Source: Comamonas koreensis (GTDB lineage Bacteria; Pseudomonadota; Gammaproteobacteria; Burkholderiales; Burkholderiaceae_C). From it: a stretch of DNA of 64,000 bases. The notes under the pieces are model-generated. The model did not search any database, was not told the origin of the DNA, and saw nothing but the letters and a program-made list of their open reading frames with translations. Each line of letters begins with the position of its first letter. Position 1 is the stretch's first letter. The translations under genes were made by a program, and so were the position numbers. Location: contig NZ_CP043575.1 in assembly GCF_014076495.1 (NCBI RefSeq), positions 1,054,001-1,118,000 on the forward strand, given 5' to 3'. Positions 38,847-63,631 of the stretch are shown piece by piece.

Positions 38847-40157
38847 ATGCGCAGTTTGAACGCCGAGCCCCGGCACTATATGACAGGTTTTGCCAACGAA
38901 TGGGCGACCGAGGCCGAGCCGGGCGCGCTGCCTGTGGGGCGCAATTCGCCACAGGTCGCGCCGCTGGGCCTGTATGCCGAGCAGCTGTCGGGCACGGCCT
39001 TTACTGCGCCGCGCCACAGCAACCGCCGCAGCTGGCTCTACCGCATCCGCCCCGGCGCCATGCATGAGCCCTTTGCGCCGCTGGCCCTGCCGCGCTGGCA
39101 AAGCCATGTCACTGGCGGCTTTGACGAGGTGCCCACGCCGCCCAACCAGCTGCGTTGGGATCCGCTGCCACTGCCCGATGCGCCCTGCGATTTTCTGCAG
39201 GGCATCGTCAGCATGGCCGGCAATGCCGCCTGCGGCATCCATCTGTATGCGGCCAACCGCAGCATGGAGGGGCGCTACTTCTACAACGCCGATGGCGAGC
39301 TGCTGATCGTGCCCCAGCAAGGGCGGCTGCAGATTGCCACCGAGCTGGGAACCTTGGAGGTGGAGCCGCAAGAGATCTGCGTGGTTCCCCGGGGGGTGCG
39401 TTTTGCCGTCACCCTGCTCGACGGTACGGCGCGCGGCTATATCTGCGAGAACTACGGCGAGCTGCTCAAGCTGCCCGACCTGGGCGTGATCGGCTCCAAC
39501 GGCCTGGCCAACCCGCGTGATTTCCAGACGCCGGTCGCCGCCTACGAGGACAAGGAGGGCGACTTCGAGCTGGTGGCCAAGCTGCGCGGCCACTTCTGGT
39601 CGGCGCACATCGGCCACTCGCCCCTCGATGTGGTGGCCTGGCATGGCAACTACGCGCCCTACAAATACGATTTGCGCCGCTTCAACACGATCGGCTCGAT
39701 CAGCTACGACCACCCCGATCCGTCGATCTTTCTGGTGCTGCAATCGCCCACCGCGCTGCCCGGCGTGGATGCGCTGGACTTTGTCATCTTCCCGCCGCGC
39801 GTGCTGGTGGCGCAGGACACCTTCCGTCCGCCCTGGTTCCACCGCAATTTCGCCAGCGAGTTCATGGGCCTGATCGAGGGCGCCTACGACGCCAAGGCCG
39901 AGGGCTTTGTGCCCGGCGGCGCCTCCTTGCACAACTGCATGAGCGGCCACGGGCCCGATGCCGATACCTTCGACAAAGCCAGCCAGGCCGACACGCACAA
40001 GCCGCACTACATCGACAACACGATGGCCTTTATGTTCGAGACCCCGGCCGTTATCCAGCCCACCGCCTACGCGCTGGAGACGGTGCAGCTGCAGCATGAG
40101 TACTACCGCTGCTGGCAAGGGCTGCAAAAGCATTTCAAGCCCCAGCGCAAAGCCTGA
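38847..40157 (+). CDS. hmgA: Homogentisate 1,2-dioxygenase
   Basis: A 436-residue non-heme iron dioxygenase opening homogentisate to maleylacetoacetate in tyrosine and phenylalanine breakdown. Diagnostic regions are [65 protein letters not shown], and the iron-ligand area [29 protein letters not shown] with [19 protein letters not shown] 38847 has AAAGGAG six bases upstream. It is 29 bases from fahA, forming an operon. A CCCTAGGG palindrome near 38763 in the upstream gap may be part of the MarR operator. No maleylacetoacetate isomerase gene is present in the window. Confidence 0.97.
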
Positions 40158-40186
40158 GGCGATTCCCCCACTTGGAGACATCAAGC

Positions 40187-41506
40187 ATGACCCTGCTCAA
40201 CGAAACCCATGACCCCGCGCTGCAAAGCTGGGTTCCTAGCGCCCAGGCCGCTGGCAGCGATTTTCCGCTGCAGAACCTGCCCTTTGCCAGCTTTCGCCGC
40301 CAAGGCAGCCAAGAGGCCTGGCGCGGCGGCGTCGCCATTGGCGACCAGATTGTCGACCTGCAGGCGCTGGCCGCCAGCGGCAGTCTGACGGGTGATGCGC
40401 AGCGCGCCGCCGAGGCGGGTGCGCAGGCTTCGCTCAACGCCTTGATGGCGCTGGGCCCCCAGGCCTGGAGCGCACTGCGCCTGGCGCTGTCGCGCGGCCT
40501 GCGCGTGGGCGCGGCCGAGCAGGCGCAGTGGCAGGGCTTCCTGGTGCCGCAAGCGCAGGCCGAGTACAACCTGCCCGCGCGGATTGGCGACTACACCGAC
40601 TTCTACACCTCCATCCACCACGCGACCAATATCGGCAAGCAGTTCCGCCCGGACAACCCCTTGCTGCCCAACTACCAGTGGGTGCCCATTGGCTACCATG
40701 GCCGCTCGTCGAGCATCGTGGTCTCGGGCACGCCGTTCAAGCGCCCGGTGGGCCAGACCAAGGCGCCCGATGCCGCGGTGCCGACGGTCAAGGCCAGCGC
40801 GCGCATGGACATCGAGCTGGAAATGGGCATCTTCATGGGCCAAGCCAATGCGCTGGGCGAGCCCGTCAGCATCGGCGAGGCCGAGGACCATGTGTTTGGC
40901 CTGTGCCTGCTCAATGACTGGTCGGCGCGCGACATCCAGCCCTGGGAATACCAACCGCTGGGCCCGTTTCTGTCGAAGAACTTTGCCTCGACCCTCTCGC
41001 CCTGGGTGGTGACCCTGGAGGCGCTGGCCCCCTACCGCGTCGCCTTTGCGCGCCCCGAAGGCGATCCGCAGCCGCTGCCCTATATGGACAGCGCCCACAA
41101 CCGCGATGCCGGCGCTTTCGACATCGCGCTGGCCGTGGACCTGCAGACGTCCAAGATGCGCGCCGCCGGCCAGCCAGCGGTGCAGATCACCCAGTCCAAC
41201 TACCGCCATGCCTACTGGACCGTGGCGCAGCTGGTCGCCCACCACACCGTCAACGGCTGCAACCTGCAGCCCGGTGACCTGCTGGGCACCGGCACCTTGT
41301 CCGGCCCGAGCCTGGACCAGGCCGCCGCGCTGATCGAGCTGACCGTGGGCGGCAAGCAGCCGCTGACCCTCCCCAATGGCGAGACCCGCACCTGGCTGGA
41401 AGACGGCGACGCCGTGATGCTGCGCGGCTGGTGCGAACGGCCCGGTGCTGCCCGCATCGGATTTGGCCCTTGCGAAGGCCAGATGCTGCCGGCGCGTACG
41501 CTGTAA
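40187..41506 (+). CDS. fahA: Fumarylacetoacetase
   Basis: A 439-residue fumarylacetoacetate hydrolase, the last enzyme of tyrosine degradation, yielding fumarate and acetoacetate. Clear motifs are ARIGDYTDFYTSIHHATNIGKQFRP (calcium and substrate ligands), WVPIGYHGRSSSIVVSG, DIELEMGIFMG, LLNDWSARDIQPWEYQPLGPFLSKNF and GTGTLSGPS. ATG 40187 has GGAG nine bases before it; the preceding TTG is rejected. It is co-transcribed with hmgA. The two functional enzymes flank the usual isomerase step, which may be spontaneous, glutathione-dependent, or encoded elsewhere. Confidence 0.97.
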   Translation: MTLLNETHDPALQSWVPSAQAAGSDFPLQNLPFASFRRQGSQEAWRGGVAIGDQIVDLQALAASGSLTGDAQRAAEAGAQASLNALMALGPQAWSALRLALSRGLRVGAAEQAQWQGFLVPQAQAEYNLPARIGDYTDFYTSIHHATNIGKQFRPDNPLLPNYQWVPIGYHGRSSSIVVSGTPFKRPVGQTKAPDAAVPTVKASARMDIELEMGIFMGQANALGEPVSIGEAEDHVFGLCLLNDWSARDIQPWEYQPLGPFLSKNFASTLSPWVVTLEALAPYRVAFARPEGDPQPLPYMDSAHNRDAGAFDIALAVDLQTSKMRAAGQPAVQITQSNYRHAYWTVAQLVAHHTVNGCNLQPGDLLGTGTLSGPSLDQAAALIELTVGGKQPLTLPNGETRTWLEDGDAVMLRGWCERPGAARIGFGPCEGQMLPARTL

Positions 41507-41613
41507 GCGACAGGTGAGGGGCTGGGGGCAGGTGGACAATGCCATCAGGCCCCGGCGGCGCCCGTAGCCCCGCGCAGCTGAGACAACAAAGATTACTGAC
41601 AGGAGACAACACC

Positions 41614-42585
41614 ATGCCCACCCCTTTTTCCCTGCGCCAGCTACTGGCTGCCGCCGCGCTGGCCTTGCCCGCTCTTGGCCATGCCGCCTACCCCGAGCGT
41701 CCCATTGAATGGGTCGTGCCCTATGCGGCAGGCGGCGGCTCCGATGTGGTCGCCCGCGTGGTGGCCGAGCCAATGGCCAAGGCCCTGGGCCAGTCGATCA
41801 TCATCCTCAATAAGCCTGGCGCGGCCACCAACATTGGTGCCGATTACGCCGCCCGTGCCAAGCCCGATGGTTACACCTTGCTGACGGGCGACACCGGCAC
41901 CTTGGCGGCCAATGCCTACCTGTACCAAAAGCTCAGTTACAGCGCTGAGAAGGACTTTGCGGCGGTGGGCATGCTGGTGCGCTTTCCGCTGATCCTCGTC
42001 GTCAACCCCAAGCTGCCGATCAAGAACCTGGCCGAATTCACTGCCTGGGCCAAGGCGCAGCAGGGTGGCGTCAGCTATGCAACGCCCGGCGCCGGCTCGC
42101 CCCACCACCTGGCGACCGAGATTTTCAAGGAGCAGGTCAAGCTGAGCCTGGTGCATGTGCCTTACAAGGGCGCGGCGCCTGCGGTGCAGGATGTCCTGGG
42201 CGGCCAGGTGCCCTTCATGTTTGTCGACTCGGTCGCCGGCTTCCAGAACATCCAGGCGGGCAAGCTGCGCGCCATCGGCATTGCGACGCCGCAGCGCTCC
42301 AAGGTGTTTCCGGACGTGCCTACCCTCGACGAGCAGGGTGTCAAGGGCTTTGAGGCCTATGCCTGGCAGGGCCTGGTCGTCCCCAAGGCTACGCCTGAGG
42401 ACCGGGTGAACCGCTTGAGCGAGCAGCTTCAGGCCACGTTGAAGGACCCGGCCGTCGTCAAGCGCCTCGAAGACATGGGACTGGAAGTGACGCCGACGAG
42501 CCGCAGCGAGATGGACAAATTCCTCGTGTCCGAGCGTAACAAACTCGGCCCCGTGATAAAAACCAACAATATTCAATTAGATTAG
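41614..42585 (+). CDS. Bug/TctC-family tripartite tricarboxylate-type solute-binding protein
   Basis: A 323-residue periplasmic binding protein with a Sec signal (residues about 1-25, ending ALGHAA). It has the Bug signature AYPERPIEWVVPYAAGGGSDVVARVVAEPMAKALGQ, NKPGAATNIGADYAARAKPDGYTLL and VHVPYKGAAPAVQDVLGGQVPFMF. Such proteins bind carboxylic or aromatic acids for TctAB-type transporters or for signalling; many are orphans, as here. ATG 41614 has AGGAG upstream. It follows the hmgA-fahA operon after 107 bases and could bind an aromatic or dicarboxylate intermediate, but no ligand can be assigned. Confidence 0.92.
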   Translation: MPTPFSLRQLLAAAALALPALGHAAYPERPIEWVVPYAAGGGSDVVARVVAEPMAKALGQSIIILNKPGAATNIGADYAARAKPDGYTLLTGDTGTLAANAYLYQKLSYSAEKDFAAVGMLVRFPLILVVNPKLPIKNLAEFTAWAKAQQGGVSYATPGAGSPHHLATEIFKEQVKLSLVHVPYKGAAPAVQDVLGGQVPFMFVDSVAGFQNIQAGKLRAIGIATPQRSKVFPDVPTLDEQGVKGFEAYAWQGLVVPKATPEDRVNRLSEQLQATLKDPAVVKRLEDMGLEVTPTSRSEMDKFLVSERNKLGPVIKTNNIQLD

Positions 42586-51061: not shown

Positions 51062-52048
51062 TCAGTCGGCGAAGGTGCCAGCAGCCTTGATGATAGGCGT
51101 CCACTTGGCGATCTCGGCCTGCACAAAGGCCTTGTGGCCTTCGGGTGTGATGCGCTGGTCGGTAGCGACCACGGCGCTCAGGTTCTCGGACTTCTTGATG
51201 AACTCGGGGTCCTTCAGGGCCACCTTCAGCGCGTCGTTGACCTTCTTCAGGATGTCGGCCGGCGTGCCCTTGGGCGCGTACAGGCCGTGCCAGATCGTCA
51301 CTTCAAAGCCCTTGAGGCCTTCTTCCTGCAAGGTCGGCAGGTCCTTGAGCGATGGCGTGGTCAGGCGCTTGGAAGTCGTCACCGCATAGGCCTTGACCTT
51401 CTTGCCCTCGATCTGGCCGGTGGTGTTGGTGGTCTGGTCGCACAGCACATCGACCTGGTTTCCCATCAGGTCGGCAATGGCCGGTGCGGCGCCCTTGTAC
51501 GGCACGGCGGTCAGCGGGATCTTCAAGGTGCTTTGCAGCAGCAGGCCGCACAGGTGCGAGGCAGAACCGATACCGGCATTGGCCAGGTTGACCTTGTCCT
51601 TTTCCTTGTTCAGGTAGGCGGCCAGTTCCTTGTAGTTGTTCGGCGCCAGGGTGGGCTTGCCGATCAGCGTCATCGGCACGTCGTTGATGATGCCCAGGTA
51701 TTCGAAGTCCTTGGTCACATCGAAGGACAGCTTGCGGTAGAGGATGGGGGCCGTGGCCACGCCGATGTGGTTGAGCAGCAGGGTGTAGCCGTCTGGTTTG
51801 GCACGTGCGGCCTTGGCCATGCCGATGGTGCTGCCTGCGCCGTCGGCATTGTCGATGACCACGGTCACGCCATTGAGGGGCTTGCGCAGCGCCTCGGCCA
51901 GGTCGCGTGCCACGCGGTCGGTCGGGCCGCCAGCGGTGAACGGCACGACGATGGTGATGGGCTTGTTGGGGTAGGAGGCGTCAGCATAGGCGCCGGTGGC
52001 GGTAGCGGCCGCCAGGGCCAGTGCAGTCCATTGCATCATCTTGTTCAT
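51062..52048 (-). CDS. Bug/TctC-family solute-binding protein, second
   Basis: A 328-residue periplasmic binding protein with a Sec signal (ALALAAATATGAYA). Bug features are SYPNKPITIVVPFTAGGPTDRVARDLAEALRKPLNG, AGSTIGMAKAARAKPDGYTLLLNHIG and VPYKGAAPAIADLMGNQVDVLCDQTTNTTGQI. There are two cysteines within the mature part (HLCGLL, VLCDQ). No TctAB membrane genes are adjacent, so it is an orphan. It lies downstream of the response regulator in the same direction after a 335-base gap with striking dyads. It could be a target of that two-component system. Confidence 0.9.
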   Translation of the reverse strand: MNKMMQWTALALAAATATGAYADASYPNKPITIVVPFTAGGPTDRVARDLAEALRKPLNGVTVVIDNADGAGSTIGMAKAARAKPDGYTLLLNHIGVATAPILYRKLSFDVTKDFEYLGIINDVPMTLIGKPTLAPNNYKELAAYLNKEKDKVNLANAGIGSASHLCGLLLQSTLKIPLTAVPYKGAAPAIADLMGNQVDVLCDQTTNTTGQIEGKKVKAYAVTTSKRLTTPSLKDLPTLQEEGLKGFEVTIWHGLYAPKGTPADILKKVNDALKVALKDPEFIKKSENLSAVVATDQRITPEGHKAFVQAEIAKWTPIIKAAGTFAD

Positions 52049-52383: not shown

Positions 52384-53268
52384 TTACGCGCTCAGCGACC
52401 CGCTGACGATGGCTGCCGCCGCCGCGCGGGTCTCCACGCCCAGCTTTTCAAACACATGCTCCAGGTGCTTGTTGACGGTGCGCGGGCTCATGCCCAGGAT
52501 CTGCGCAATGTCGCGGTTGGTCTTGCCCTTGGCCAGCCAGCCCAGTACCTCCGTCTCGCGCGGCGTCAGCGCTGCATCCTGCAGGCGCTGGGTGCTGGCG
52601 CGCAGGCCCTCATGGCCCAGGCGCAGCACCAGCATGCGCTCGCCAATGCCCACCTCGCCCACCGACTGGGCCAGCAGGCTGCCGCTGCCCAGCGGGTGCT
52701 GGGCGGCGGTTTCCCAGGCTGACTGCAACCAGGCCGTTGCCGCTGCCGCGCTGGCGCCAAAGGCCTGTTCCAGCCACAGCGCTGCTTGCGGCGAGCGCCA
52801 GGCCAGGCGCCCCTGGCGGTCGAGCACCACCACGCCCATGCCGGCCACATCGACCGCGGCCTGGGCCATGCGGCCCACATGGGCGTTGTGCATATGGCGG
52901 GCCAGGCGCGCGAGCACCTCGGGCAGCTTTAGCGGTTTGACGACATAGTCCACGCCGCCGCAGGCAAAGCCTTCGACGATATGGTCGGTCTCCGACAGCC
53001 CGGTCATGAAAATGACCGGCACATGGGCCCAGGCCGGGTGGGCCTTGATCTTGCGGCACAGCGAAAAGCCGCTCTCGCCGGGCATCACGCAGTCGAGCAG
53101 TACGGCGTCCGGCGTGGCGATCTCCAGGCGCTCCAGCGCCTCGGCTGCATTGCGGGCGACCAGCACGGTGTAGTCCTGCTGACTGAGCGCGTCGCAGAGA
53201 AATCCCAGGGTCTCGACGGCATCGTCCACGACGAGAACAACACCGGCATGGGGCGTGAAAGTGGGCAT
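52384..53268 (-). CDS. Response regulator with LuxR-type DNA-binding domain
   Basis: A 294-residue regulator. Residues about 10-125 form a receiver (LVVDDAVETL acidic pocket, Asp59 in DAVLLDCVMPGESG, and the Lys in DYVVKPLKLPE). A middle segment (about 135-225) resembles a degenerate PAS-like region (GMGVVVLDRQGRLAWRS). The LuxR/GerE helix-turn-helix at about 228-285 has LTPRETEVLGWLAKGKTNRDIAQILGMSPRTVNKHLEHVFEKLGVETRAAAA. It starts two bases after the stop of the hybrid kinase, so it is the cognate output of that sensor and is translationally linked. Confidence 0.93.
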   Translation of the reverse strand: MPTFTPHAGVVLVVDDAVETLGFLCDALSQQDYTVLVARNAAEALERLEIATPDAVLLDCVMPGESGFSLCRKIKAHPAWAHVPVIFMTGLSETDHIVEGFACGGVDYVVKPLKLPEVLARLARHMHNAHVGRMAQAAVDVAGMGVVVLDRQGRLAWRSPQAALWLEQAFGASAAAATAWLQSAWETAAQHPLGSGSLLAQSVGEVGIGERMLVLRLGHEGLRASTQRLQDAALTPRETEVLGWLAKGKTNRDIAQILGMSPRTVNKHLEHVFEKLGVETRAAAAAIVSGSLSA

Positions 53269-53270
53269 GG

Positions 53271-56200
53271 TCAGTGGTCCGCAGGCCCTGCAGGCCCGAG
53301 GCTCTCCAGAATGAGGGGAAAGTCAAAACGCTGGGCAGCGGCATCGAGGGCCTGCAGCGTGCCGCGCGATTGGGGGTGGCTGGCCTGGGCGTCCGCCAGC
53401 AGTTTGCGCAGGCCGGCGCCATCGCCAAAGCGCGCCAGGCGCGTGATGTCCGACTGCAGATCCGGCGGCAGGGGCGGCTCCTGCGGCGCCGGTGGCGGCG
53501 CTGCGGGGGCCGTGGTCGCAGAGCCAGCCGAGCCAGCCGAGCCAGCGGCCATGTCTTCTATCCATTCGAGCTTCAGCAGCCAGGCCAGCGTGTCCATCAG
53601 CTCGGACTCCAACACCGGTTTGCCGACAAAGGCCTGGCAGCCGGCGCGCTCGAGCTGCTCGGGCTGGTTCTCGAACAGGTCGGCCGAGACAATGACGATG
53701 GGCAGGTGCATGGCGCTGTACTGCTGGCGCACCAGCGCAGCGGTCTGCCAGCCGCTCAGGTCGTCCATGCTCAGGTCCAGCAACAGGGCGTCGGGTGGCG
53801 TGTCGCGGATGACCTCCAGGCATTCCTGGCCGCTGGCCGCCTCCAGCACGGTAAAGCCCAGCGGGATCAGCACGCCGGCGATCAGCTGGCGGTGGATGGG
53901 CTGGTCATCGACCAGCAGCAGGGTTCTGCGCGGGCCCAGGTAGCCGCCGATAAAGGGGCGGGCCTGGGGCTGGCCGGCCAGTGCGCGCGGCGGGTTGTGC
54001 ACCTCGCTCAGGTACAGGCGCACCGAGAACGTGCTGCCCTGGCCGGGCGTGCTTTGCAGGCTCAGCTCCCCGCCCATCAGCAAGGTCAGCATGCGGGTGA
54101 TGGTCAGGCCCAGGCCGGTGCCGGTGCTGGCGGCGCGGCGCCCGGCACTGCCCCGCTCAAAGGGCATGAAGATGCGCTCATGGTCCTGCGGCGCGATGCC
54201 GATGCCCGTGTCGCGGATGTCAAAGCGCACCACATCGCTGTGGCAGTCCACCTGCAGGCGGATGCTGCCACTGTCGGTAAAGCGGATGGCATTGCCCAGC
54301 AGGTTGATCAGAATCTGGCGCAGGCGCTTGGCATCCGCCCGCACCCAGGCGGGAATGCGGCCTTGCGTCTGCAGCTCGAACTGCAGGCCCTTGGCCTGGG
54401 CCTGCGGCCGCACCATGCGGTTGACCGCTTCGAGAAACTCGGGGAACTGCAGCGGCGCCGGGTCCAGCCGCAGGCGCCCGGCCTCGATGCGTGCCAGGTC
54501 CAGCAACTCGTCGATCAGCGAATGCATGTGCTGGCCGCTGTGCAGCATGGTGCTGATGTTTTCGTGCGCGGGGCCGGGCAGGTCGCTGCGCCGCAGCAGC
54601 AGCTGGGCATAGCCCAGGATGCTGGTCAGCGGCGTGCGCAGCTCATGGGCCATGCCGGCCACATAGCGTGACTTGGCCTGGTTGGCCGCCTCGGCATGCT
54701 CCTTGGCGGCCTGCAGCTGGGCATCGGTGCGCTGGTGGGCCTCGATCTCCTGCATCAGCATCTGCGTCTGGCGCTCGGACTCCTCGCGCGCCATGCGCCG
54801 GCTGTCCTTGGCCAGCACCAGCCACCAGGCGTAGAGCGCGCACAGCAGCGCCAGCAGCGAGAACGCGCGCACAAAGGCCCAGCGCAAATCCGTCTGCCCG
54901 GGCGAGAGGCTTTGCTGCATATAGACCACGAACAAGGCCAGCGCCATGGGGCTGGTCAGCAGCAGCACCGTGCCCGCATAGGACGCGAGCCGAAAGTTGA
55001 TGCTGCGCTGGATGCGCTGGGGCAGCAGGCTCTCGTAGAGGCTGCGCCACTGCACCTGGGCCCGCGCCGTGCTGGGCTTGCAGCGGTCGTGGCAGCGCGA
55101 ATCGAGCGAGCAGCACAGCGAGCAGATCGGCGCGCCATAGGCGGGGCAGCCGGCCATGTCGGCGCGCTCGAACTGGTTCTGGCAGACAGCGCACTGCAGC
55201 TGCGCAGCCTCGAACTGCTCGGGCTGGCGGGCGATATACCAGCGCCCGCCGGTGGCCCAGGCCAGCAGCGGCGATACCAAAAGCGCAATGGCCAGCGCAA
55301 TATAGGGCGCAAAGGCGCTGGCCAGCTCGCCCAGCAGGCCACTATAGGCAATGCCGGCGGCCAGCGCGGCAATGCCCATGGCGCCCAGGCCGACCGGGTT
55401 GAGGTCGTGCAGGTAGGCGCGGCGGAACTCGGTGCCCGTCGGGCTCAGGCCCAGCGGCTTGTTGATGACCAGATCGGCCACCAGCGCGCCAACCCAGGCG
55501 ACTGCGATATTGCTGTAGATGCCCAGCACCTTCTCCAGCGCACTGAACACGCCCAGGGTCATGATCAGCATCGCAATCATCACGTTGAAGACCAGCCACA
55601 CGACGCGGCCGGGGTGGCTGCGGGTGAGGCGCGAGAACACATTCGACCAGGCGAGCGACCCGGCATAGGCATTGGTCACATTGATCTTGATCTGCGCCAT
55701 GATGACGAAGACCAGCGTAATCCAGAGGGCGACGCCCGGGTCCTGCACGATCTTGCCAAAGGCGGTGAGGTAGAGGTGGGTGGGGTCCGAGGCCTCGGCC
55801 ACGGTCGAGCCAAACTGCAGCGCCACATAGGCCAGGTAGGCGCCGCCCAACATGCGCGCCGCACCCAGCAGAATCCAGCCGGGCCCGCCCATCAGCACAC
55901 AAAACCACCAGCGGCCCCGGTTGGAGGCCGTCTTGCGCGGCATGAAGCGCAGGTAATCGACCTGCTCGCCCACCTGCACGATCAGCGCGAAGATCACCGT
56001 GCTGGCCGAGCCGAAATACAGCCAGTTGAAATCGGCGCTGCCCGAGGTCAGGCCCGACAGGCCCGGCAGCTCCTGCACAAACTGCGGCTGCTGGAAGGCC
56101 AGCCACAGGTAGGGGGTCAGCAGCATCACGGCCCACAGCGGCTGGGTCCAGGCCTGCAGCTTGGAGATGAAGGTGACGCCATAGAGCACCATCGGGATCA

Positions 56201-56681
56201 CCACCAGCGCGCACAGCACATAGCAGACCACCAGCGGCCAGCCCAGCGCCATCTGCACCGCCAGCGCCATGATGGCCGCCTCCAGCGCAAAGAAGATAAA
56301 GGTGAAGGTGGCGTAGACCAGCGAGGTGATGGTCGAGCCCAGGTAGCCAAAGCCGGCGCCCCGGGTGAGCAGGTCCATGTCCAGCCCATAGCGCGCCGCG
56401 CAGACCGAGATGGGCCAGGCTGTCAGAAAAATGACGATGCCCATCACCGCAATGGCCCAGGCGGCGCTGCTAAAGCCATAGGCCAAGGTGATGGTCGCGC
56501 CAATGGCCTCCAGCGCCAGAAAGGACAGCCCGCCCATCGCCGTGTTCAGCAGCTGCCACTCGCTCCAGCGCCGGGCCTTTTGCGGCGTATAGCGCAGTGC
56601 GTAGTCCTCCATGGTCTCGTCGGCCACCCAGGCGTTGTATTCGCGGCGGATCGGGAAGATCTTTTGGGACGGTTTGGTCAT
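53271..56681 (-). CDS. Hybrid sensor histidine kinase with N-terminal NCS1 permease-like domain, Cys-rich module and receiver
   Basis: An 1136-residue fusion. Residues about 10-465 are a multi-helix transporter domain of the NCS1 purine/cytosine/allantoin permease type (FPIRREYNAWVADETMEDYALRYTP, then helices through IAVAWVGALVADLVINKPLG). Residues 497-534 are a cysteine-rich module (CAVC, CPAY, CSLCC, CHDRC). Two helices, a coiled coil, HisKA with His679 (AHELRTPLTSILGYAQLL), HATPase (NLLGNAIRFTDSG, DTGIGIAPQDHERIF, GTGLGLTI) and a receiver with Asp969 (LLLDLSMDD) follow. The design parallels CbrA/CrbS-type transporter-kinases, but with NCS1 in place of SSSF. Divergent from the amide/urea transporter genes, it probably senses an amide, urea or nucleobase-type nitrogen compound. 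ATG 56681 is chosen; the frame is open upstream. Confidence 0.9.
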   Translation of the reverse strand: MTKPSQKIFPIRREYNAWVADETMEDYALRYTPQKARRWSEWQLLNTAMGGLSFLALEAIGATITLAYGFSSAAWAIAVMGIVIFLTAWPISVCAARYGLDMDLLTRGAGFGYLGSTITSLVYATFTFIFFALEAAIMALAVQMALGWPLVVCYVLCALVVIPMVLYGVTFISKLQAWTQPLWAVMLLTPYLWLAFQQPQFVQELPGLSGLTSGSADFNWLYFGSASTVIFALIVQVGEQVDYLRFMPRKTASNRGRWWFCVLMGGPGWILLGAARMLGGAYLAYVALQFGSTVAEASDPTHLYLTAFGKIVQDPGVALWITLVFVIMAQIKINVTNAYAGSLAWSNVFSRLTRSHPGRVVWLVFNVMIAMLIMTLGVFSALEKVLGIYSNIAVAWVGALVADLVINKPLGLSPTGTEFRRAYLHDLNPVGLGAMGIAALAAGIAYSGLLGELASAFAPYIALAIALLVSPLLAWATGGRWYIARQPEQFEAAQLQCAVCQNQFERADMAGCPAYGAPICSLCCSLDSRCHDRCKPSTARAQVQWRSLYESLLPQRIQRSINFRLASYAGTVLLLTSPMALALFVVYMQQSLSPGQTDLRWAFVRAFSLLALLCALYAWWLVLAKDSRRMAREESERQTQMLMQEIEAHQRTDAQLQAAKEHAEAANQAKSRYVAGMAHELRTPLTSILGYAQLLLRRSDLPGPAHENISTMLHSGQHMHSLIDELLDLARIEAGRLRLDPAPLQFPEFLEAVNRMVRPQAQAKGLQFELQTQGRIPAWVRADAKRLRQILINLLGNAIRFTDSGSIRLQVDCHSDVVRFDIRDTGIGIAPQDHERIFMPFERGSAGRRAASTGTGLGLTITRMLTLLMGGELSLQSTPGQGSTFSVRLYLSEVHNPPRALAGQPQARPFIGGYLGPRRTLLLVDDQPIHRQLIAGVLIPLGFTVLEAASGQECLEVIRDTPPDALLLDLSMDDLSGWQTAALVRQQYSAMHLPIVIVSADLFENQPEQLERAGCQAFVGKPVLESELMDTLAWLLKLEWIEDMAAGSAGSAGSATTAPAAPPPAPQEPPLPPDLQSDITRLARFGDGAGLRKLLADAQASHPQSRGTLQALDAAAQRFDFPLILESLGPAGPADH

Positions 56682-56752
56682 CACAGGCAGCGCACAGGCG
56701 CTGGGGGCAAGGGATCCGCAGACCAAGCAATATTCAGGCCACGGCAAGGCTG

Positions 56753-56836
56753 GTGCGGCCGGCGAGGTGTGGCCGGCCAAGTGCAGCCGGCCAGGTGTGG
56801 TCGCCGAGACGTGGCCGGTGAGGTGCGGCCGGTGAG
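56753..56836. repeat. Six tandem 14-bp repeats in the divergent kinase/urtA promoter region
   Basis: Six consecutive 14-base units follow the consensus GTGYGGCCGGYGAG (units start at 56753, 56767, 56781, 56795, 56809 and 56823), with a partial seventh. Units differ by one to four bases but keep exact register. The array lies between the kinase start (56681) and urtA (56997), the 315-base divergent gap; the rest of that gap shows no gene. Confidence 0.85.
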
Positions 56837-56996
56837 GTGCACCCCAAGGTGTGTTGGGCGAGCAAGCTTAGCCTGCGGTGGCTACGCAGGGGCTACGTCA
56901 AATGACGTATGGGTGTTTGGCGGCCGCACTTTTAGAGTGGCTACAGGTTTCAACCCGTTACCAGTTCAGCCCGCTGAACCACTTGAGGAGAAAAGC

Positions 56997-58244
56997 ATGT
57001 CTCAGGATTTCCATCAGTCGCTTCGCCGCCGCCGTCTCTTGCAAGGCCTGGGTGCCATCAGTGTGGCGGGTCTGCCCATGCTGGCCCGCGCCCAGACCCC
57101 GCCGACCGCCCAGGTCAACACCACCAAGCTGGCGGTGACCGACACCGAGGTGGTGGTCGGGCAGCTGCACTCGTCGACCGGCACGATGGCGATCTCCGAG
57201 ACCGGCTCCATCCAGGCCGAGCAACTGGCCATTGACCAGATCAACGCGATGGGCGGTGTGCTGGGCCGCAAGATCCGCGTGATCAAGGAAGACGGCGCCT
57301 CCGACTGGCCCACCTTTGCTGAAAAGGCCAAGAAGCTGCTCATCAGCGACCATGTGGCCACCGTGTTTGGCTGCTGGACCTCGGCCTCGCGCAAGGCCGT
57401 GCTGCCGGTCTTCGAGAAGGAAAACGGCCTGCTCTACTACCCCACCTTCTACGAAGGCCTGGAGCAGAGCAAGAACGTCATCTACACCGGCCAGGAAGCG
57501 ACCCAGCAGATTCTGTACAGCCTCGACTGGGCCAAGAAGGAAAAGAACGCCTCCAAGGTGTTCCTGGTGGGCTCGGACTACATCTGGCCACGTACCTCGA
57601 TGAAGATTGCGCGCAAGCACATCGAGACCTTCCAGAAAGGCAAGGTCGTCGGCGAGGAGTACTACCCGCTCAGCAACACCAACTTCAACTCGCTGATCAA
57701 CAAGATCAAGGTGGCCAAGCCCGATCTGATCTTTGCCGCTGTCGTGGGCGGCTCCAACGTGGCCTTCTACAAGCAGCTCAAGGCCGCAGGCATCACCGGT
57801 GACAAGCAGTTCCTGGTGACCCTGTCGGTGACCGAGGACGAAATGCTGGGCATTGGCGGCGAGAACTTTGCCGGCTTCTACTCGAGCATGAAGTACTTCC
57901 AGACGCTGGACAACCCCAACAACAAGAAGTTTGTCGAGGCCTTCAAGGCCAAGTACGGCCCCAAGTCGGTCATCGGCGATGTGACCCAGGCCGGTTACCT
58001 GGGCCCCTGGTTGTGGAAGGCCGCTGTCGAGAAGGCCGGCAGCTTCGATGTCGACAAGGTCGTGGCCGCCTCGCCGGGCATCGAGCTCAACACTGCCCCG
58101 GAAGGCTACGTGAAGATCGACGCCAACCACCACCTCTGGAGCAAGTCGCGCATTGCGCAGGGCCTGCCGGACGGGACCTTCAAGGTGGTGTCCGAGTCGC
58201 CCGAGTTGATCAAACCTGATCCGTTCCCTAAAGGCTACCAATAA
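56997..58244 (+). CDS. urtA: Urea/short-chain amide ABC transporter substrate-binding protein
   Basis: A 415-residue periplasmic binding protein of the UrtA/FmdD branch (Leu/Ile/Val-binding type). A twin-arginine signal SLRRRRLLQGLGAISVAG precedes the mature domain with VVVGQLHSSTGTMAISE, FGCWTSASRKAVLPVFEKENGLLYYPTFYEG and GDVTQAGYLGPWLW. Known UrtA proteins bind urea; FmdD of methylotrophs binds short-chain amides. Since formamidase genes end the operon and no urease is present, amides are at least as likely. ATG 56997 follows GAGGAG. A very long open frame upstream is antisense to the kinase and is not coding. Confidence 0.93.
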   Translation: MSQDFHQSLRRRRLLQGLGAISVAGLPMLARAQTPPTAQVNTTKLAVTDTEVVVGQLHSSTGTMAISETGSIQAEQLAIDQINAMGGVLGRKIRVIKEDGASDWPTFAEKAKKLLISDHVATVFGCWTSASRKAVLPVFEKENGLLYYPTFYEGLEQSKNVIYTGQEATQQILYSLDWAKKEKNASKVFLVGSDYIWPRTSMKIARKHIETFQKGKVVGEEYYPLSNTNFNSLINKIKVAKPDLIFAAVVGGSNVAFYKQLKAAGITGDKQFLVTLSVTEDEMLGIGGENFAGFYSSMKYFQTLDNPNNKKFVEAFKAKYGPKSVIGDVTQAGYLGPWLWKAAVEKAGSFDVDKVVAASPGIELNTAPEGYVKIDANHHLWSKSRIAQGLPDGTFKVVSESPELIKPDPFPKGYQ

Positions 58245-58324: not shown

Positions 58325-59239
58325 ATGACTTTTTCTGAAATGATGAATATCGGGCTGATGCAGGGCTTTGCAGGCCTCAGCCTGTTTGCGGTACTGCTGC
58401 TGATGGGCCTGGGCCTGGCGATTATTTTTGGCCAGATGGGTGTCATCAACATGGCGCATGGCGAGTTCATGACCATCGGTGCCTACACCGTGTTCATGGC
58501 CTCCACCTTGGTGGAAGCCCATGCCCCGGCCTGGATGCCCTACTACTTTCCCTTGTCGATCGTGGCGGCCTTTGTGTTTGCGTTTGTGCTGGGCTGGCTG
58601 GCCGAGTGGGCGTTGATACGGCATCTGTACAAGCGCCCGCTCGATACCCTGCTGGCCACCTGGGGCCTGAGCCTGGGGCTGCAGCAGGTGTTCCGCACGG
58701 TGATCGGCCCCAAAGAGGTGAGCCCCACCTTGCCTGACTGGCTGATGGGTTCCTGGTCGCCCAGTGAGGGGCTGGACATTCCGATCAACGGCATGTTTGT
58801 GCTGGCGCTGGCGCTGCTGGTCACAGCCGGCGTGCTGATCGCGCTCTACCGCAGCCGCTGGGGCCTGCGGGTGCGCGCCACGGTCAGCAACCGCGTGATG
58901 GCCAACGCCATCGGCATCAATACCAAGAAGACCGACCGCCTCACCTTTGCCATTGGCTGCGGGGTGGCGGGCATTGCCGGGGCGGCCTTCACCACCATCG
59001 GCTCGACCGGGCCCACCTCCGGCTCGCTCTACATCGTGGATTCGTTCCTGGTCGTCACCTTTGGCGGCGCCGCCAGCCTGCTGGGCACTGTGGCATCGGC
59101 CTTTGGCATTGCCCAGGTGCAGTCGATCACGGAGTTCTTCCTGAGTGGCTCCATGGCCAAGGTGCTGACCTTGTCCTTCATCGTCGTGGTCTTGATGCTG
59201 CGGCCCCAAGGTCTGTTTGCCAGCAAGGTGCGCCGCTAA
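58325..59239 (+). CDS. urtB: Urea/amide ABC transporter permease UrtB
   Basis: A 304-residue inner-membrane permease of the LivH/UrtB type with about eight to nine helices. Family signs include GLAIIFGQMGVINMAHGEFMTIGAYTVF, LALALLVTAGVLIALYRSRWGLRVRATVSNRVMANAIGIN and FGGAASLLGTVASAFGIAQVQSITEFF. It forms the channel with UrtC and is energised by UrtD and UrtE. The gene starts 80 bases after urtA and is the second gene of the transporter operon. Length is normal. Confidence 0.94.
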   Translation: MTFSEMMNIGLMQGFAGLSLFAVLLLMGLGLAIIFGQMGVINMAHGEFMTIGAYTVFMASTLVEAHAPAWMPYYFPLSIVAAFVFAFVLGWLAEWALIRHLYKRPLDTLLATWGLSLGLQQVFRTVIGPKEVSPTLPDWLMGSWSPSEGLDIPINGMFVLALALLVTAGVLIALYRSRWGLRVRATVSNRVMANAIGINTKKTDRLTFAIGCGVAGIAGAAFTTIGSTGPTSGSLYIVDSFLVVTFGGAASLLGTVASAFGIAQVQSITEFFLSGSMAKVLTLSFIVVVLMLRPQGLFASKVRR

Positions 59240-59262
59240 AGCCGGTGCAAAGGATGACAACC

Positions 59263-60456
59263 ATGAAAGATATGCGTGTGTGGCTGGAGCGAACCGGCCT
59301 GGGCCATGTGGCCATCCTGGCCGTCGTGCTGCTGGCGCTGCTGCCGCTGGGGCTGGACATCTTCCGCCTGAACCTGGTGGGCAAGTACCTGTGCTACGCC
59401 TTTGTGGCCGTGGGCCTGGTGATGCTCTGGGGCTGGGGCGGTGTGCTGAGCCTGGGGCAGGGCGTGTTCTTTGGCTTGGGCGGCTACGCGATGGCCATGT
59501 TCCTCAAGCTCGAAGCCTCGGACAAGGTCAGCACCGCGATCCAGTCCACGCCGGGCATCCCCGACTTCATGGACTGGAACCAGCTCACCGCGCTGCCGCT
59601 GTGGTGGACGCCGTTCGAGTACCTGCCGTTTGCGTTGTTTGCGGTGGTGGCAGTGCCCGCACTGCTGGCCTTCATCATCGGCTTTGCGATGTTCCGCCGC
59701 CGCGTGGGCGATGTCTACTTTGCCATCATCACCCAGGCGGTGGCGCTGATCCTGACGGTGCTGATCATCGGCCAGCAGGGCTACACCGGCGGCGTCAACG
59801 GCATGACCGATCTGCGCACCATGCTGGGCTGGGACATCCGCACCGACAGCGCCAAGTACATCCTCTACTACGTCTGCTGCGGCCTGCTGCTGCTGTCGGT
59901 GGTGGCCTGCCTCTGGATCCAGAAAAGCAAGCTGGGCACCTTGCTGCTGGCGATGCGCGACAAGGAAGACCGCGTGCGCTTCTCGGGCTACGACGTGTCG
60001 ATGTTCAAGGTCTTTGTGTTCTGCCTGGCCGCTGCGATATCGGGCATTGGTGGCGCGATGTTTGCGCTGCAGGTGGGCTTTATGTCGCCATCGATCGTGG
60101 GCATTGTGCCTTCCATCGAGATGGTGATTTTTGCCGCCGTCGGTGGCCGCATGAGCCTGGTGGGGGCCGTCTACGGCGCGCTGCTGGTCAACTTTGGCAA
60201 GACCTATTTCTCCGAGACCTTCCCCGATCTCTGGATGTTCTGCATGGCAGGCCTGTTCATCGTCGTGACCATGTTCTTCCCCAATGGTCTGGCGGGCCTG
60301 TATGCCAGCAAGGTCAAGCCGCTGCTGGCCCGGCGCGCAGCCAAACCCGCCAGTACACCGAGCCACGGCGCAGGCCCTGCCAGCACCAAGCCCGCAACCA
60401 CCAGCAGCAAGGCGCAGGAGCCCGTCGCCGGCAAGCCTGCGGCCGAAGGCGTCTGA
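59263..60456 (+). CDS. urtC: Urea/amide ABC transporter permease UrtC
   Basis: A 397-residue LivM/UrtC-type permease (VMLWGWGGVLSLGQGVFFGLGGYAMAMFLKLE, MFRRRVGDVYFAIITQAVALILTVLIIGQQGYTGGVNGMTDL, VGFMSPSIVGIVPSIEMVIFAAVGGRMSLVGAVYGA). The C-terminal 40 residues form a Pro/Ala/Lys-rich cytoplasmic tail. ATG 59263 has AAAGG nine bases upstream; GTG 59245 and ATG 59254 are alternatives. It lies 23 bases after urtB. Confidence 0.93.
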   Translation: MKDMRVWLERTGLGHVAILAVVLLALLPLGLDIFRLNLVGKYLCYAFVAVGLVMLWGWGGVLSLGQGVFFGLGGYAMAMFLKLEASDKVSTAIQSTPGIPDFMDWNQLTALPLWWTPFEYLPFALFAVVAVPALLAFIIGFAMFRRRVGDVYFAIITQAVALILTVLIIGQQGYTGGVNGMTDLRTMLGWDIRTDSAKYILYYVCCGLLLLSVVACLWIQKSKLGTLLLAMRDKEDRVRFSGYDVSMFKVFVFCLAAAISGIGGAMFALQVGFMSPSIVGIVPSIEMVIFAAVGGRMSLVGAVYGALLVNFGKTYFSETFPDLWMFCMAGLFIVVTMFFPNGLAGLYASKVKPLLARRAAKPASTPSHGAGPASTKPATTSSKAQEPVAGKPAAEGV

Positions 60457-60470
60457 ACCAGGAGCACGCA

Positions 60471-61214
60471 ATGAGCAATACCGATTTCGCACTGGCGGTG
60501 GAGGGCTTGACGGTCTCCTTTGACGGCTTCAAGGCCATCGAGGACCTGACCCTCTATGTCGACAAGAACGAGCTGCGCGTGATCATCGGCCCCAACGGCG
60601 CGGGCAAGACCACCTTGCTCGACCTGATCTGCGGCAAGACCAAGGCCAGCAGCGGCAGCATCAAGTTCCAGAACCAGGAGCTGACGGGCATGGACGAGTA
60701 CCTGCGTGTGCGCAAGGGCATAGGCCGCAAGTTCCAGACGCCCTCGATCTACGAGAACCTCTCGGTCTTCAAGAACCTGGAGGTGTCCTACCCTGAGGGA
60801 CGCTCGGTGTTTGGCGCGCTGCGCTTTCAGTGCACGCCCGCTGTGCAGCAGCGCGTGCAGGCGGTGGCCCAGGAGATTGGCCTGGACCATGTGCTGGAGA
60901 TGGAATCGGGCCTGCTGTCGCACGGGCAAAAGCAGTGGCTGGAGATTGGCATGCTGCTGATGCAGGAGCCCGAGCTGCTGATGCTGGACGAACCGATTGC
61001 CGGCATGAGCGCGCGCGAGCGCGAGTTGACGGCCGATCTGCTCAAGCGCATCTGCGTGGGCCGCTCGGTGATCGTGATCGAGCACGACATGGAGTTTGTG
61101 GCCCGCATTGCGCACAAGGTCACCGTCATGCACCAGGGCAAGATTCTGGCCGAGGGCTCGATGGAGGCCGTGCAGTCCGACCCCAAAGTCATCGATGTCT
61201 ACCTGGGCCACTGA
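60471..61214 (+). CDS. urtD: Urea/amide ABC transporter ATP-binding protein UrtD
   Basis: A 247-residue LivG/UrtD-type ATPase: Walker A GPNGAGKTTL, Q-loop FQTPSIYENLSVF, signature LLSHGQKQWLEIGMLL (SHGQ in place of the usual SGGQ, typical of UrtD), Walker B LLMLDEPIAGMS and H-loop VIEHDMEFV. It drives uptake with UrtE. ATG 60471 has GGAG upstream, 14 bases after urtC. Confidence 0.95.
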   Translation: MSNTDFALAVEGLTVSFDGFKAIEDLTLYVDKNELRVIIGPNGAGKTTLLDLICGKTKASSGSIKFQNQELTGMDEYLRVRKGIGRKFQTPSIYENLSVFKNLEVSYPEGRSVFGALRFQCTPAVQQRVQAVAQEIGLDHVLEMESGLLSHGQKQWLEIGMLLMQEPELLMLDEPIAGMSARERELTADLLKRICVGRSVIVIEHDMEFVARIAHKVTVMHQGKILAEGSMEAVQSDPKVIDVYLGH

Positions 61215-61224
61215 GGAGCCGCAT

Positions 61225-61914
61225 ATGCTGAAAGTCAACGATATCCACGTGGCCTACGGACAGAGCGAGGCGCTGCACGGCATCTCCTTCGAAGGCCGGC
61301 CCAACGAAACCCTGGCCATCATGGGCCGCAACGGCATGGGCAAGACCACCTTGTTCAAGGCGCTGATGGGTGTGCTGCCGCTCAAGAGCGGGGCGGTGCA
61401 GGTGGCGGGGCAGGATGTGTCGCGCGACGAGAGCTATCTGCGCGTGGCCAAGGGCATTGCCTATGTGCCCCAGGGCCGCATGATTTTCCCGACCCTGAGC
61501 GTCGAGGAGAACATCGAGACCGGTCTGGAAAATTCCCGCGACCGCAAGATCCCCGACGAGATCTATGCACTCTTCCCGGTGCTGTGGGATATGCGCCGGC
61601 GCAAGGGCGGCAACCTCTCGGGCGGGCAGCAGCAGCAGCTGGCCATTGCGCGTGCGCTGGTCACCAACCCCAAGGTGCTGCTGCTCGACGAGCCCACCGA
61701 GGGCATCCAGCCGTCCATCATCAAGGACATCGCCAAGGCGCTCAATGAGATCCGCAAGATGCGCGAGATCACCATCGTGGTCTCCGAGCAGGTGCTGCAT
61801 TTTGCGATGGATGTGGCCGACCGTCTGTTCGTGATCGAGGGCGGCCGCATCGTGCACGAGACCGACCGCGCCAACACCAACGAGGCCCACATCAAGTCGT
61901 ACCTGTCGGTTTGA
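61225..61914 (+). CDS. urtE: Urea/amide ABC transporter ATP-binding protein UrtE
   Basis: A 229-residue LivF/UrtE-type ATPase. Walker A GRNGMGKTTLFKAL, Q-loop VPQGRMIFPTLSVEENIETGL, signature NLSGGQQQQLAIARAL, Walker B VLLLDEPTEGIQPSII and H-loop region VSEQVLHFAMDVADRLFVIEGG. It completes the five-gene transporter and lies ten bases after urtD. GAGGAG precedes ATG 61225. Confidence 0.95.
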   Translation: MLKVNDIHVAYGQSEALHGISFEGRPNETLAIMGRNGMGKTTLFKALMGVLPLKSGAVQVAGQDVSRDESYLRVAKGIAYVPQGRMIFPTLSVEENIETGLENSRDRKIPDEIYALFPVLWDMRRRKGGNLSGGQQQQLAIARALVTNPKVLLLDEPTEGIQPSIIKDIAKALNEIRKMREITIVVSEQVLHFAMDVADRLFVIEGGRIVHETDRANTNEAHIKSYLSV

Positions 61915-61976: not shown

Positions 61977-63200
61977 ATGCCCGAAACCCTGATCAAGGTT
62001 GATCTGTCCCAACCGGCCCCTTCCAACGAGAAGGTGCACAACCGCTGGCACCCCGATATTCCGATGGCCTGCTGGGTCAACCCCGGCGATGACTTTGTGC
62101 TGGAGACCTACGACTGGACGGGGGGCTTCATTAAGAACAACGACAGCGCCGACGATGTGCGCGATGTGGACCTGACCACGGTGCACTACCTCTCGGGCCC
62201 GGTCGGTGTCAAAGGCGCCGAGCCCGGTGACCTCTTGGTCGTGGACCTGCTCGACATCGGTGCCAAGGACGAGAGCCAGTGGGGCTTCAACGGCTTTTTC
62301 TCGCAGAAGAACGGCGGCGGGTTCCTGACCGACCACTTCCCGTCGGCGCAGAAGTCGATCTGGGATTTCCAGGGCATGTTCACCACCTCGCGCCATATCC
62401 CTGGCGTGCGCTATGCCGGTTTGATCCACCCGGGCCTGATCGGCACCTTGCCCGACCCCAAGATGCTCGAGACCTGGAATGCGCGCGAGCAGGCGCTGAT
62501 CGACACCAACCCGGACGGCAACCTGGCCAACCCGCCCTTCATGGCGACGGCGCACATGGGCCAGCTCAAGGGCGAGGCGCGCGACAAGGCCGCTGCCACC
62601 GGTGCGCGCACCGTGCCCCCGCGCGAGCATGGCGGCAACTGCGATATCAAGGACCTCTCGCGCGGCTCCAAGATCTTCTTCCCGGTCTATGTCGATGGCG
62701 CCGGCCTGTCGGTGGGCGATCTGCACTTCAGCCAGGGCGATGGCGAAATCACCTTCTGCGGCGCCATCGAGATGGCCGGCTGGGTGCACATGAAGGTCTC
62801 CATCATCAAGGGCGGCATGGCCAAGTACGGCATCAAGAACCCCATCTTCAAGCCCAGCCCCATCGTGCCGACCTACAACGACTATGTGATCTTTGAAGGC
62901 ATCAGCGTCGACGAATCGGGCAAGCAGTACTACCTGGATGTGAACGTGGCCTACAAGCAGGCCTGTCTCAACGCCATCGAGTACCTGAAGAAGTTTGGTT
63001 ACTCGGGCGCGCAGGCCTATTCCATCCTCGGCACCGCCCCCGTGCAGGGCCATATCAGCGGCGTGGTGGACGTGCCCAATGCCTGCGCCACCCTGTGGCT
63101 GCCCACGCAGATCTTTGAGTTCGACATCAACCCCAATGCCGCCGGCCCGGTCAAGTACCTGGATGGCAGCATCGATATGCCGATCTCGTACGACAAGTAA
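61977..63200 (+). CDS. fmdA: Formamidase
   Basis: A 407-residue FmdA/AmdA-family amidase (EC 3.5.1.49 type), hydrolysing formamide, and often acetamide, to the acid and ammonia. Conserved stretches are WHPDIPMACWVNPGDDFVLETYDWTGGFIKNNDSADDVRDVD, HYLSGPVGVKGAEPGDLLVVDLLDIG, PPREHGGNCDIKDLSRGSKIFFPVYV and GAQAYSILGTAPVQGHISGVVDVPNACATLWLPT. ATG 61977 has AGGAG upstream. Placed behind the transporter, it releases nitrogen from the imported amide in the cytoplasm; formate would feed one-carbon metabolism. Confidence 0.95.
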   Translation: MPETLIKVDLSQPAPSNEKVHNRWHPDIPMACWVNPGDDFVLETYDWTGGFIKNNDSADDVRDVDLTTVHYLSGPVGVKGAEPGDLLVVDLLDIGAKDESQWGFNGFFSQKNGGGFLTDHFPSAQKSIWDFQGMFTTSRHIPGVRYAGLIHPGLIGTLPDPKMLETWNAREQALIDTNPDGNLANPPFMATAHMGQLKGEARDKAAATGARTVPPREHGGNCDIKDLSRGSKIFFPVYVDGAGLSVGDLHFSQGDGEITFCGAIEMAGWVHMKVSIIKGGMAKYGIKNPIFKPSPIVPTYNDYVIFEGISVDESGKQYYLDVNVAYKQACLNAIEYLKKFGYSGAQAYSILGTAPVQGHISGVVDVPNACATLWLPTQIFEFDINPNAAGPVKYLDGSIDMPISYDK

Positions 63201-63262: not shown

Positions 63263-63631
63263 ATGCCAACTTATGACTACGTCTGCCAGCGCTGCGGCCA
63301 ATTCGACGCGCTGCGCCGCCTGTCCGACCGCAACCTGGCCTGCGTCTGCCCGCAATGTGGCGCGGCCTCCGAGCGCGTCATCACCCAGGCCCCGCGCCTG
63401 GCCTGCACCTCCCCCCAGCAGCGCCGCGCCGCCGAGGTCAACGAACGCGCCCGTCATGCGCCGCGCATGTCGCGTGATAATGACCCTGCTGCGGGCAACT
63501 ATGGGCGGCTGCGGCATCCCAGTGGGTGTGGTTGCTGCAGTGGGGGCACTAAAACTGGCGCGGCTGCTGCAGCGGCGCAGCCGGCGCTCAAAAGCCAGGT
63601 GGGGAATCGGCCTTGGATGATCAGCCACTGA
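63263..63631 (+). CDS. fmdB: FmdB-family zinc-ribbon protein
   Basis: A 122-residue protein. Residues 1-42 are a zinc ribbon with PTYDYVCQRCGQFDALRRLSDRNLACVCPQCGAASERVITQAP (two C-X2-C pairs). The tail is basic and contains a further CGCC cluster and an Ala-rich stretch. FmdB proteins were first noted beside formamidase genes and are often described as regulatory; their exact role is unsettled. ATG 63263 follows AGGAGA. Its position after fmdA supports the family call. Confidence 0.87.
   Translation: MPTYDYVCQRCGQFDALRRLSDRNLACVCPQCGAASERVITQAPRLACTSPQQRRAAEVNERARHAPRMSRDNDPAAGNYGRLRHPSGCGCCSGGTKTGAAAAAAQPALKSQVGNRPWMISH

Follow-up and report, generated by a model that had tools for sequence, protein, structure and literature searches.

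An NCS1-like domain as the predicted sensor of a hybrid histidine kinase beside urt-fmd genes in Comamonas koreensis

Some bacterial histidine kinases carry a transporter-like domain as their sensor. The transporter-kinases CbrA, CrbS and RpuS are SLC5 proteins in the published extracts available. Such extracts also place the inverted repeat for CrbR at -52 to -36 of acs (PMC5715377) and record the proposal that K196 of CbrA, at the Na2 site, substitutes for Na+ (PMC13022988). Here we analyze a 64,000-nucleotide stretch of the Comamonas koreensis genome (contig NZ_CP043575.1, positions 1,054,001 to 1,118,000; "the window"), in which a hybrid histidine kinase with an NCS1-like sensor is encoded next to a LuxR-type regulator and divergently from urtABCDE-fmdAB genes for urea/amide transport and formamidase. 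Transporter-like sensor kinases are already known; we found no description of an NCS1-kinase in the open-access literature, which leaves out most subscription papers. We consider it probable that this two-component system responds to urea or short-chain amides by inducing the genes for taking them up and hydrolyzing them.

Architecture of the kinase and its sensor domain

The kinase gene starts with the ATG at 56681 in the list of open reading frames. Its single product joins an N-terminal domain of predicted NCS1 fold to a hybrid kinase by way of an eight-cysteine linker and an additional pair of helices, and the regulator gene follows:

53271..56681, minus strand: hybrid histidine kinase with NCS1-like membrane sensor, 1136 amino acids (open reading frame, Pfam, at least 8000 homologues scored)
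55245..56612, minus strand: NCS1-like sensor domain, residues about 24-479 (predicted fold and profile alignment)
55080..55193, minus strand: eight-cysteine cluster C497..C534, possible zinc-binding linker (alignment of 32 kinases)
54798..54995, minus strand: putative extra membrane helix pair, residues about 563-628, before the kinase part (model secondary structure and hydrophobic sequence)
54477..54677, minus strand: HisKA domain with phospho-acceptor H box (Pfam)
54009..54335, minus strand: HATPase_c domain (Pfam)
53586..53918, minus strand: internal receiver domain (Pfam)
52384..53268, minus strand: response regulator, receiver and GerE (LuxR/NarL-type) DNA-binding domain (Pfam)

HisKA, HATPase_c and receiver domains lie within a single chain, as in hybrid histidine kinases, and the H box begins at residue 679. 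The combination of receiver and GerE domains in the 52384-53268 product identifies it as a NarL/FixJ (LuxR-type) regulator.

A fold search predicted for the sensor a LeuT-type fold nearest CodB and Mhp1, and profile alignment revealed distant sequence kinship to NCS1 transporters; no SLC5 symporter domain was found in the sensor. The NCS1 link rests on the fold search and on intermediate free-standing permeases, two of four of which match PF02133 over its gathering score. When queried against Pfam and PDB sequences, the sensor matched neither an NCS1 model nor an NCS1 structure, and a permease that bridges to the sensor (locus L154) matched no NCS1 structure among PDB sequences. Together with the kinase domains, the predicted fold and the profile alignment bear out the view taken in an earlier note on this DNA, that an NCS1-type sensor is fused to a hybrid kinase, and the likeness to CbrA-kind transporter-kinases that it drew holds as well. 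The bridging permease gene is followed by one for a carbon-nitrogen hydrolase (PF00795; L154:8949-12168), a hint that amide-like compounds may already be substrates of this branch of NCS1 proteins.

A homologue search over 5.8 billion proteins scored at least 8000 candidates. The closest among the matches listed was a Comamonas piscis protein (95% identical), and the kinases of four named Comamonas loci are 96-97% identical to that of the window. Within the window's own family, 221 of 399 genomes matched at E <= 0.001, of which four or more did so through free permeases only; in a draw from the phylum, 59 of 398 genomes matched, which we read as 52 real kinases and seven short or permease-like proteins. 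Databases label the homologues "ATP-binding protein", "hybrid sensor histidine kinase" or similar, and some "purine-cytosine permease-like". Two homologues, P0008 and P0047, are either odd fusions or assembly errors: the precomputed Pfam list of one (871 amino acids) shows receiver and LuxR domains and lacks a kinase domain, and the other (994 amino acids) carries a match to PF14681, which we take to be uracil phosphoribosyltransferase.

In NCS1 transporters the substrate is sandwiched by two conserved aromatics, W108 and F204 in CodB (PMC9379551). By profile alignment W108 corresponds to Phe130 of the kinase, an aromatic residue conserved in 169 of 175 aligned kinase sequences (173 of them different), and F204, in transmembrane helix (TM) 6, to Leu233, which is Leu in all 175. 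At the conserved NCS1 substrate residues, which the earlier note had named for checking, an aromatic is thus kept at the first of these positions and lost at the second. We compared the pocket between 32 kinases and their 32 nearest free-standing permeases. Glu58, Glu239, Gln240 and Trp345 are present in every kinase, whereas most permeases have Phe (29/32), Met (23/32), Ala (30/32) and Leu (30/32) at the respective columns, and none of those compared has E58, E239 or Q240. Lys332 is likewise found in 32/32 kinases, against 30 Arg and two Lys. Across all 175 sequences, E58, E134, Q236, E239, Q240, K332, N334, N337, Y339, S342 and W345 are invariant, and these eleven residues, which to judge from the alignments would line the sensor pocket, are kept alike in copies beside urt-fmd, urease or fmd-amiS. 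Twelve other columns set urt-fmd copies apart from urease copies, none of them among the invariant candidate pocket residues. One, E383 at the start of the predicted TM10 helix, is Glu in 82/92 urt-fmd copies and Gly in 32/39 urease copies and could be a specificity position. The profile alignment places K332 in TM8 near the Na2 ligands, where by analogy it may act like K196 of CbrA.

With a whole NCS1 fold predicted, the sensor might instead be a real transporter, a transceptor that takes up urea, an amide or a cyclic ureide and signals the flux to the kinase, as has been proposed for CbrA and histidine; CbrA, itself a transporter-kinase, takes up histidine according to the available part of one study (PMC13022988). 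We regard this as unlikely, though the most credible of the alternatives. A dedicated Urt importer is encoded next door, and the invariant Lys332 near Na2 and the lost TM6 aromatic both depart from Na+-coupled CodB, although neither point excludes transport.

After the transporter-like domain, at the position that STAC occupies in CbrA and CrbS, cysteines 497, 500, 512, 520, 523, 524, 530 and 534 are invariant in 32/32 aligned kinases. No Pfam match named STAC was found in the kinase, the presence of a STAC model in that library not having been checked. Modelled alone, the cysteine segment gave a weak prediction (mean predicted local distance difference test score 71.5, predicted template modelling score 0.48). 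Foldseek matches to this model included RING/FYVE/PHD-like zinc fingers; none fell below E 0.2, and we therefore claim no fold for the cysteine domain.

Gene neighborhood across relatives

The genes divergent from the kinase in the window are:

56682..56996, no strand: divergent promoter region, kinase to urtA
56997..58244, plus strand: urtA, urea/amide-type substrate-binding protein (TIGR03407 over cut-off)
58325..59239, plus strand: urtB, permease (TIGR03409 over cut-off)
59245..60456, plus strand: urtC, permease (TIGR03408 over cut-off)
60471..61214, plus strand: urtD, ATPase (PF00005, PF12399)
61225..61914, plus strand: urtE, ATPase (TIGR03410 over cut-off)
61977..63200, plus strand: fmdA, formamidase (NF045496, 745.8 bits, cut-off 500)
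63263..63631, plus strand: fmdB, zinc-ribbon protein (TIGR02605 and NF053663 over cut-off)

UrtA over its cut-off and the UrtB, UrtC and UrtE equivalogs (NCBIfam) identify a transporter of the Urt/Fmd kind, for urea or short-chain amides. The genome has a urease elsewhere, and its only UrtA over the cut-off is the kinase-adjacent copy, so urea and formamide are not separable here.

To compare neighborhoods, marker genes were located by tblastn within fetched loci of three sets: (a) named loci, the best 80 of 159 confirmed; (b) an unselected phylum draw outside the window's family, comprising all 45 full-length places; and (c) 51 in-family copies picked by hand, mainly second or third paralogues, and so a selection rather than a sample. 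One contig is common to sets (a) and (b) (L096 = L179). In set (a), urt genes diverge from the kinase in 77/80 loci, the three misses lying at contig edges with 56-1090 bp upstream, and the regulator is downstream of the kinase in 75/80. The earlier note had set conservation of the kinase-regulator pair with urt-fmd in relatives as a condition beforehand, and the arrangement survived: where at least 8 kb upstream is available, urt is divergent in 64/64 loci and fmdA is present in 57/64. In set (b), urt, fmdA, amiE, amiS or ureC lies within 9 kb in 43/45 (the misses, L183 and L201, are contig ends); in one locus (L197) urtA, 6.5 kb away, is the sole marker. Across the set, urt is divergent in 38/45, with fmdA in 32, amiE in 19, ureC in four and amiS in two, and the regulator is downstream in 43/45. 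In set (c), ureC is divergent within 4 kb in 35/51, with UreC, UreA, UreE and UreG named among the neighbors, and some urea/amide gene is present in 42/51. Mapped on the sensor tree, context labels change 30 times, against a shuffled mean of 75; context thus follows lineage, with several switches.

Kinase and transporter also co-occur at the level of genomes. In the phylum draw, UrtA exceeded its cut-off in 50/52 kinase-bearing genomes versus 85/346 others (Fisher p 1.8e-24). Many kinase-bearing genomes have two UrtA genes; comparing rows by eye, the kinase-adjacent one scores ~533-564 bits and the other ~551-602, which suggests, and does not prove, an amide preference of the adjacent transporter.

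A sensor of this kind could alternatively read a nucleobase, hydantoin, allantoin or another cyclic ureide, with urt, fmd and urease handling the breakdown products. Characterized bacterial NCS1 proteins do mostly carry ring compounds, although the accessible part of the same source gives metformin as a substrate outside that class (PMC13390362). We think this improbable: the recurrent neighbors identified are transporters and enzymes for urea and simple amides, in a comparison that included no search aimed at hydantoinase or allantoinase, and the stacking aromatic of TM6 is lost from all 175 aligned kinases. The earlier note's suggestion of an amide-containing nitrogen source can accordingly be narrowed. 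Loss of the TM6 aromatic, gain of polar or charged residues and the members beside urease together favor urea or a short-chain amide and make nucleobases, hydantoin and allantoin, which that note had also listed, less likely.

The same note had included a Bug gene in the proposed regulon, and this part gained no support. The gene (51062-52048, minus strand: Bug-type binding protein gene, 3' of the regulator on the same strand; Pfam) has a counterpart directly downstream and on the same strand in 4/80 named loci, all Comamonas, 0/45 phylum loci and 0/51 family picks, and we reject it as a system member beyond Comamonas. Before a second Bug-like gene, open frames at 38847-42585 resemble homogentisate dioxygenase and fumarylacetoacetase by eye.

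Variant clusters were seen in passing. Shorter relatives in L149, L151, L152 and L153 (885-961 amino acids predicted) adjoin fmdA-amiS-fmdB, and no receiver was found in that of L151. Next to the kinase stands a REC-EAL protein in L149 (scanned; L153 has the same cluster) and a REC-HisKA-HATPase protein in L151 (scanned; same cluster in L152), which suggests rewired outputs. GGDEF and/or EAL cyclic-di-GMP genes recur beside kinases (L223:10786-12705, L124, L149), in L223 inside the fmd operon. AAA-type proteins adjoin amiE in urt-fmd-ami clusters: ClpB-like in L159 (18601-19632) and CbbQ-like in L223 (14173-15015).

A palindrome as candidate operator

Between the kinase and urtA lies an inverted repeat of 7-2-7 form, a candidate binding site for the regulator:

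56894..56909, no strand: palindrome TACGTCA-AA-TGACGTA, predicted regulator-binding site

It is the sole TACG-N8-CGTA in the 64-kb window, where 0.05 would be expected, and it does not lie at the Bug gene. Scanning the 400 nt before each kinase, we found this pattern in 93/119 kinase-urt regions (92/118 distinct; shuffled mean 0.1), in 0/39 urease regions, 0/4 amiS regions and 2/12 others.

Because relatedness inflates such region counts, whole genomes were searched. With up to two mismatches allowed, the search of the window's own 5.2-Mb genome gave two places, the exact site described above and another that differs at two positions, whereas a reversed control pattern gave 18 matches per strand. 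In 50 genomes hand-chosen from the family and phylum lists, TACGTYA-N2-TGACGTA occurs in 21/36 with the kinase and 0/14 without it, and the reversed control matched once in the 50. Twenty-one of the 22 exact places lie within 1 kb of a kinase start. The remaining one (G301) immediately precedes fmdB-amiE; a GGDEF-EAL gene on the opposite strand lies between these two genes and fmdA. In the other loci, 5/76 sites are more than 1 kb from the kinase (6/77 with G301), and these five stand ~70-220 bp before urtA (L068, L098), amiE (L053, L061) or fmdA (L172). The palindrome therefore goes with the catabolic genes. The earlier note's proposal that the pair controls urtABCDE-fmdAB gains support from the conserved divergent synteny and from a palindrome apparently dedicated to the space between kinase and urt.

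The palindrome is present twice, at a distance of 22 bp, in most Pseudomonas loci. Many comamonads have a -10-like element, CCCTAATCT (in the window TTTTAGAGT), that begins ~20 nt past the palindrome, a spacing that would put the center of the site near -42. This element was read from aligned relatives only; a sigma-70 promoter scan of the divergent region returned nothing. Between the kinase start and the palindrome, at 56738-56849, a 14-bp tandem repeat (GGTGYGGCCGGC-like) in six overlapping register copies forms a possible length-variable spacer.

Proposed mechanism and relation to known systems

Several observations weigh against a urea/amide sensor acting through this palindrome. PF02133 did not match the sensor at E <= 10, and Leu233 stands where NCS1 proteins have the second of their two aromatics. 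Two alignments disagree on the register of TM8 at K332, so that the role of this residue stays a proposal. No urea/amide gene was found in the fetched flanks of 9/51 copies in set (c) (L124 twice, L128, L132, L143, L146, L150, L205, L216), and the neighbors of the exceptions that were scanned (RND pump, metal ATPase, TonB receptor, EAL proteins, ABC protein, AMP nucleosidase and others) share no theme. Relatedness inflates the synteny counts as well as those of the palindrome, and the neighborhood cannot tell urea from formamide or acetamide. Among the 119 kinase-urt regions, 26 lack the palindrome within 400 nt (five of these carry one within 1.5 kb); sensors with no more than 53% identity to that of the window account for 16 of the 26, and distant clades may therefore rely on a different site. 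Before urease-linked copies, in regions that are short and partly ureA coding, we found no convincing shared palindrome, which leaves the control of these copies without operator support.

Alternatively, the pair might regulate nothing beyond its own genes, or else a general response to nitrogen or carbon, the neighborhood being inherited gene order. All the evidence is comparative, gene order is common to related genomes, and the nine in-family copies just mentioned lie elsewhere. Yet the association persists in classes whose partner enzymes differ (urt-fmd, urease, fmd-amiS), and a palindrome nearly unique in each genome precedes urtA, fmdA, fmdB or amiE in six loci away from the kinase. We judge this explanation the least probable of those considered.

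Returning to a sensor of urea or short-chain amides, we infer a ligand, a direction of control and a phosphate route. Copies beside urease, urt-fmd and fmd-amiS all have the same residues, and for this reason the best guess for the ligand is the shared H2N-C(=O)- group or urea itself; such a ligand is probable. It would bind the NCS1-like pocket, from which the TM6 aromatic has been lost and in which E58, E239 and Q240 have been gained, and shift the bundle and hash conformations. The cysteine linker and the pair of helices would carry the movement to the kinase, leading to autophosphorylation at His679. Phosphate would then reach the LuxR-type regulator; the transfer may be direct, or the internal receiver may relay the phosphate or compete for it. 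A regulator dimer would bind TACGTCA-N2-TGACGTA, probably just upstream of the urtA -35, and activate urtABCDE-fmdAB (with amiE where present) and possibly its own operon. Related copies next to urease or next to fmdA-amiS may act in a comparable way. A broader view, which we advance tentatively and with less than even confidence, is of a pervasive proteobacterial class of urea/amide receptors: an NCS1 transporter turned receptor through E58, E239 and Gln240 in the broken helices and K332 close to the sodium site. An eight-cysteine segment, metal- or thiol-binding, would couple it to the kinase, and in the urt-fmd branch it would have a dedicated operator.

If true, these proteins would form a second, independently evolved class of transporter-kinase, perhaps a general urea/short-amide sensor in these bacteria. 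With another transporter fold in this role, and in thousands of proteins, one could compare how motions of the transport type drive a kinase. Bacterial use of urea and short-chain amides bears on nitrogen cycling in soil, water and wastewater, and this class would provide a sensor for it; the candidate operator could be used in biosensor work.

Among known systems, the fmd cluster of Methylophilus methylotrophus encodes the amide/urea transporter FmdDEF with FmdA and FmdB and is reported to be induced by short-chain amides and urea. The window has the same kind of transport and formamidase genes; we know of no NCS1-kinase at the M. methylotrophus cluster. CodB and Mhp1 share with the sensor a predicted fold and distant sequence kinship, whereas the NCS1-like domain of the window is fused to a kinase; relative to CodB, the alignment replaces F204 by Leu233 and W108 by Phe130 and gives E58, E239, Q240 and K332 no counterpart. 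CbrA resembles the kinase in carrying a LeuT-fold transporter domain and a lysine, K196 at its Na2 site against K332 here, and differs in having SLC5 and STAC domains. Its regulator, CbrB, is not known to be of the LuxR type. CrbS/CrbR, from what is available of its description, is alike in joining a transporter-fold sensor on a hybrid kinase to a LuxR-type regulator and an inverted repeat immediately upstream of the target promoters for ligand transport and use (PMC5715377). The two systems differ in their operator sequences, in their sensors (SLC5 with STAC there, an NCS1-like domain with an eight-cysteine linker here) and in the ligand, acetate for CrbS and, as the comparisons suggest, urea or an amide for the kinase of C. 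koreensis.

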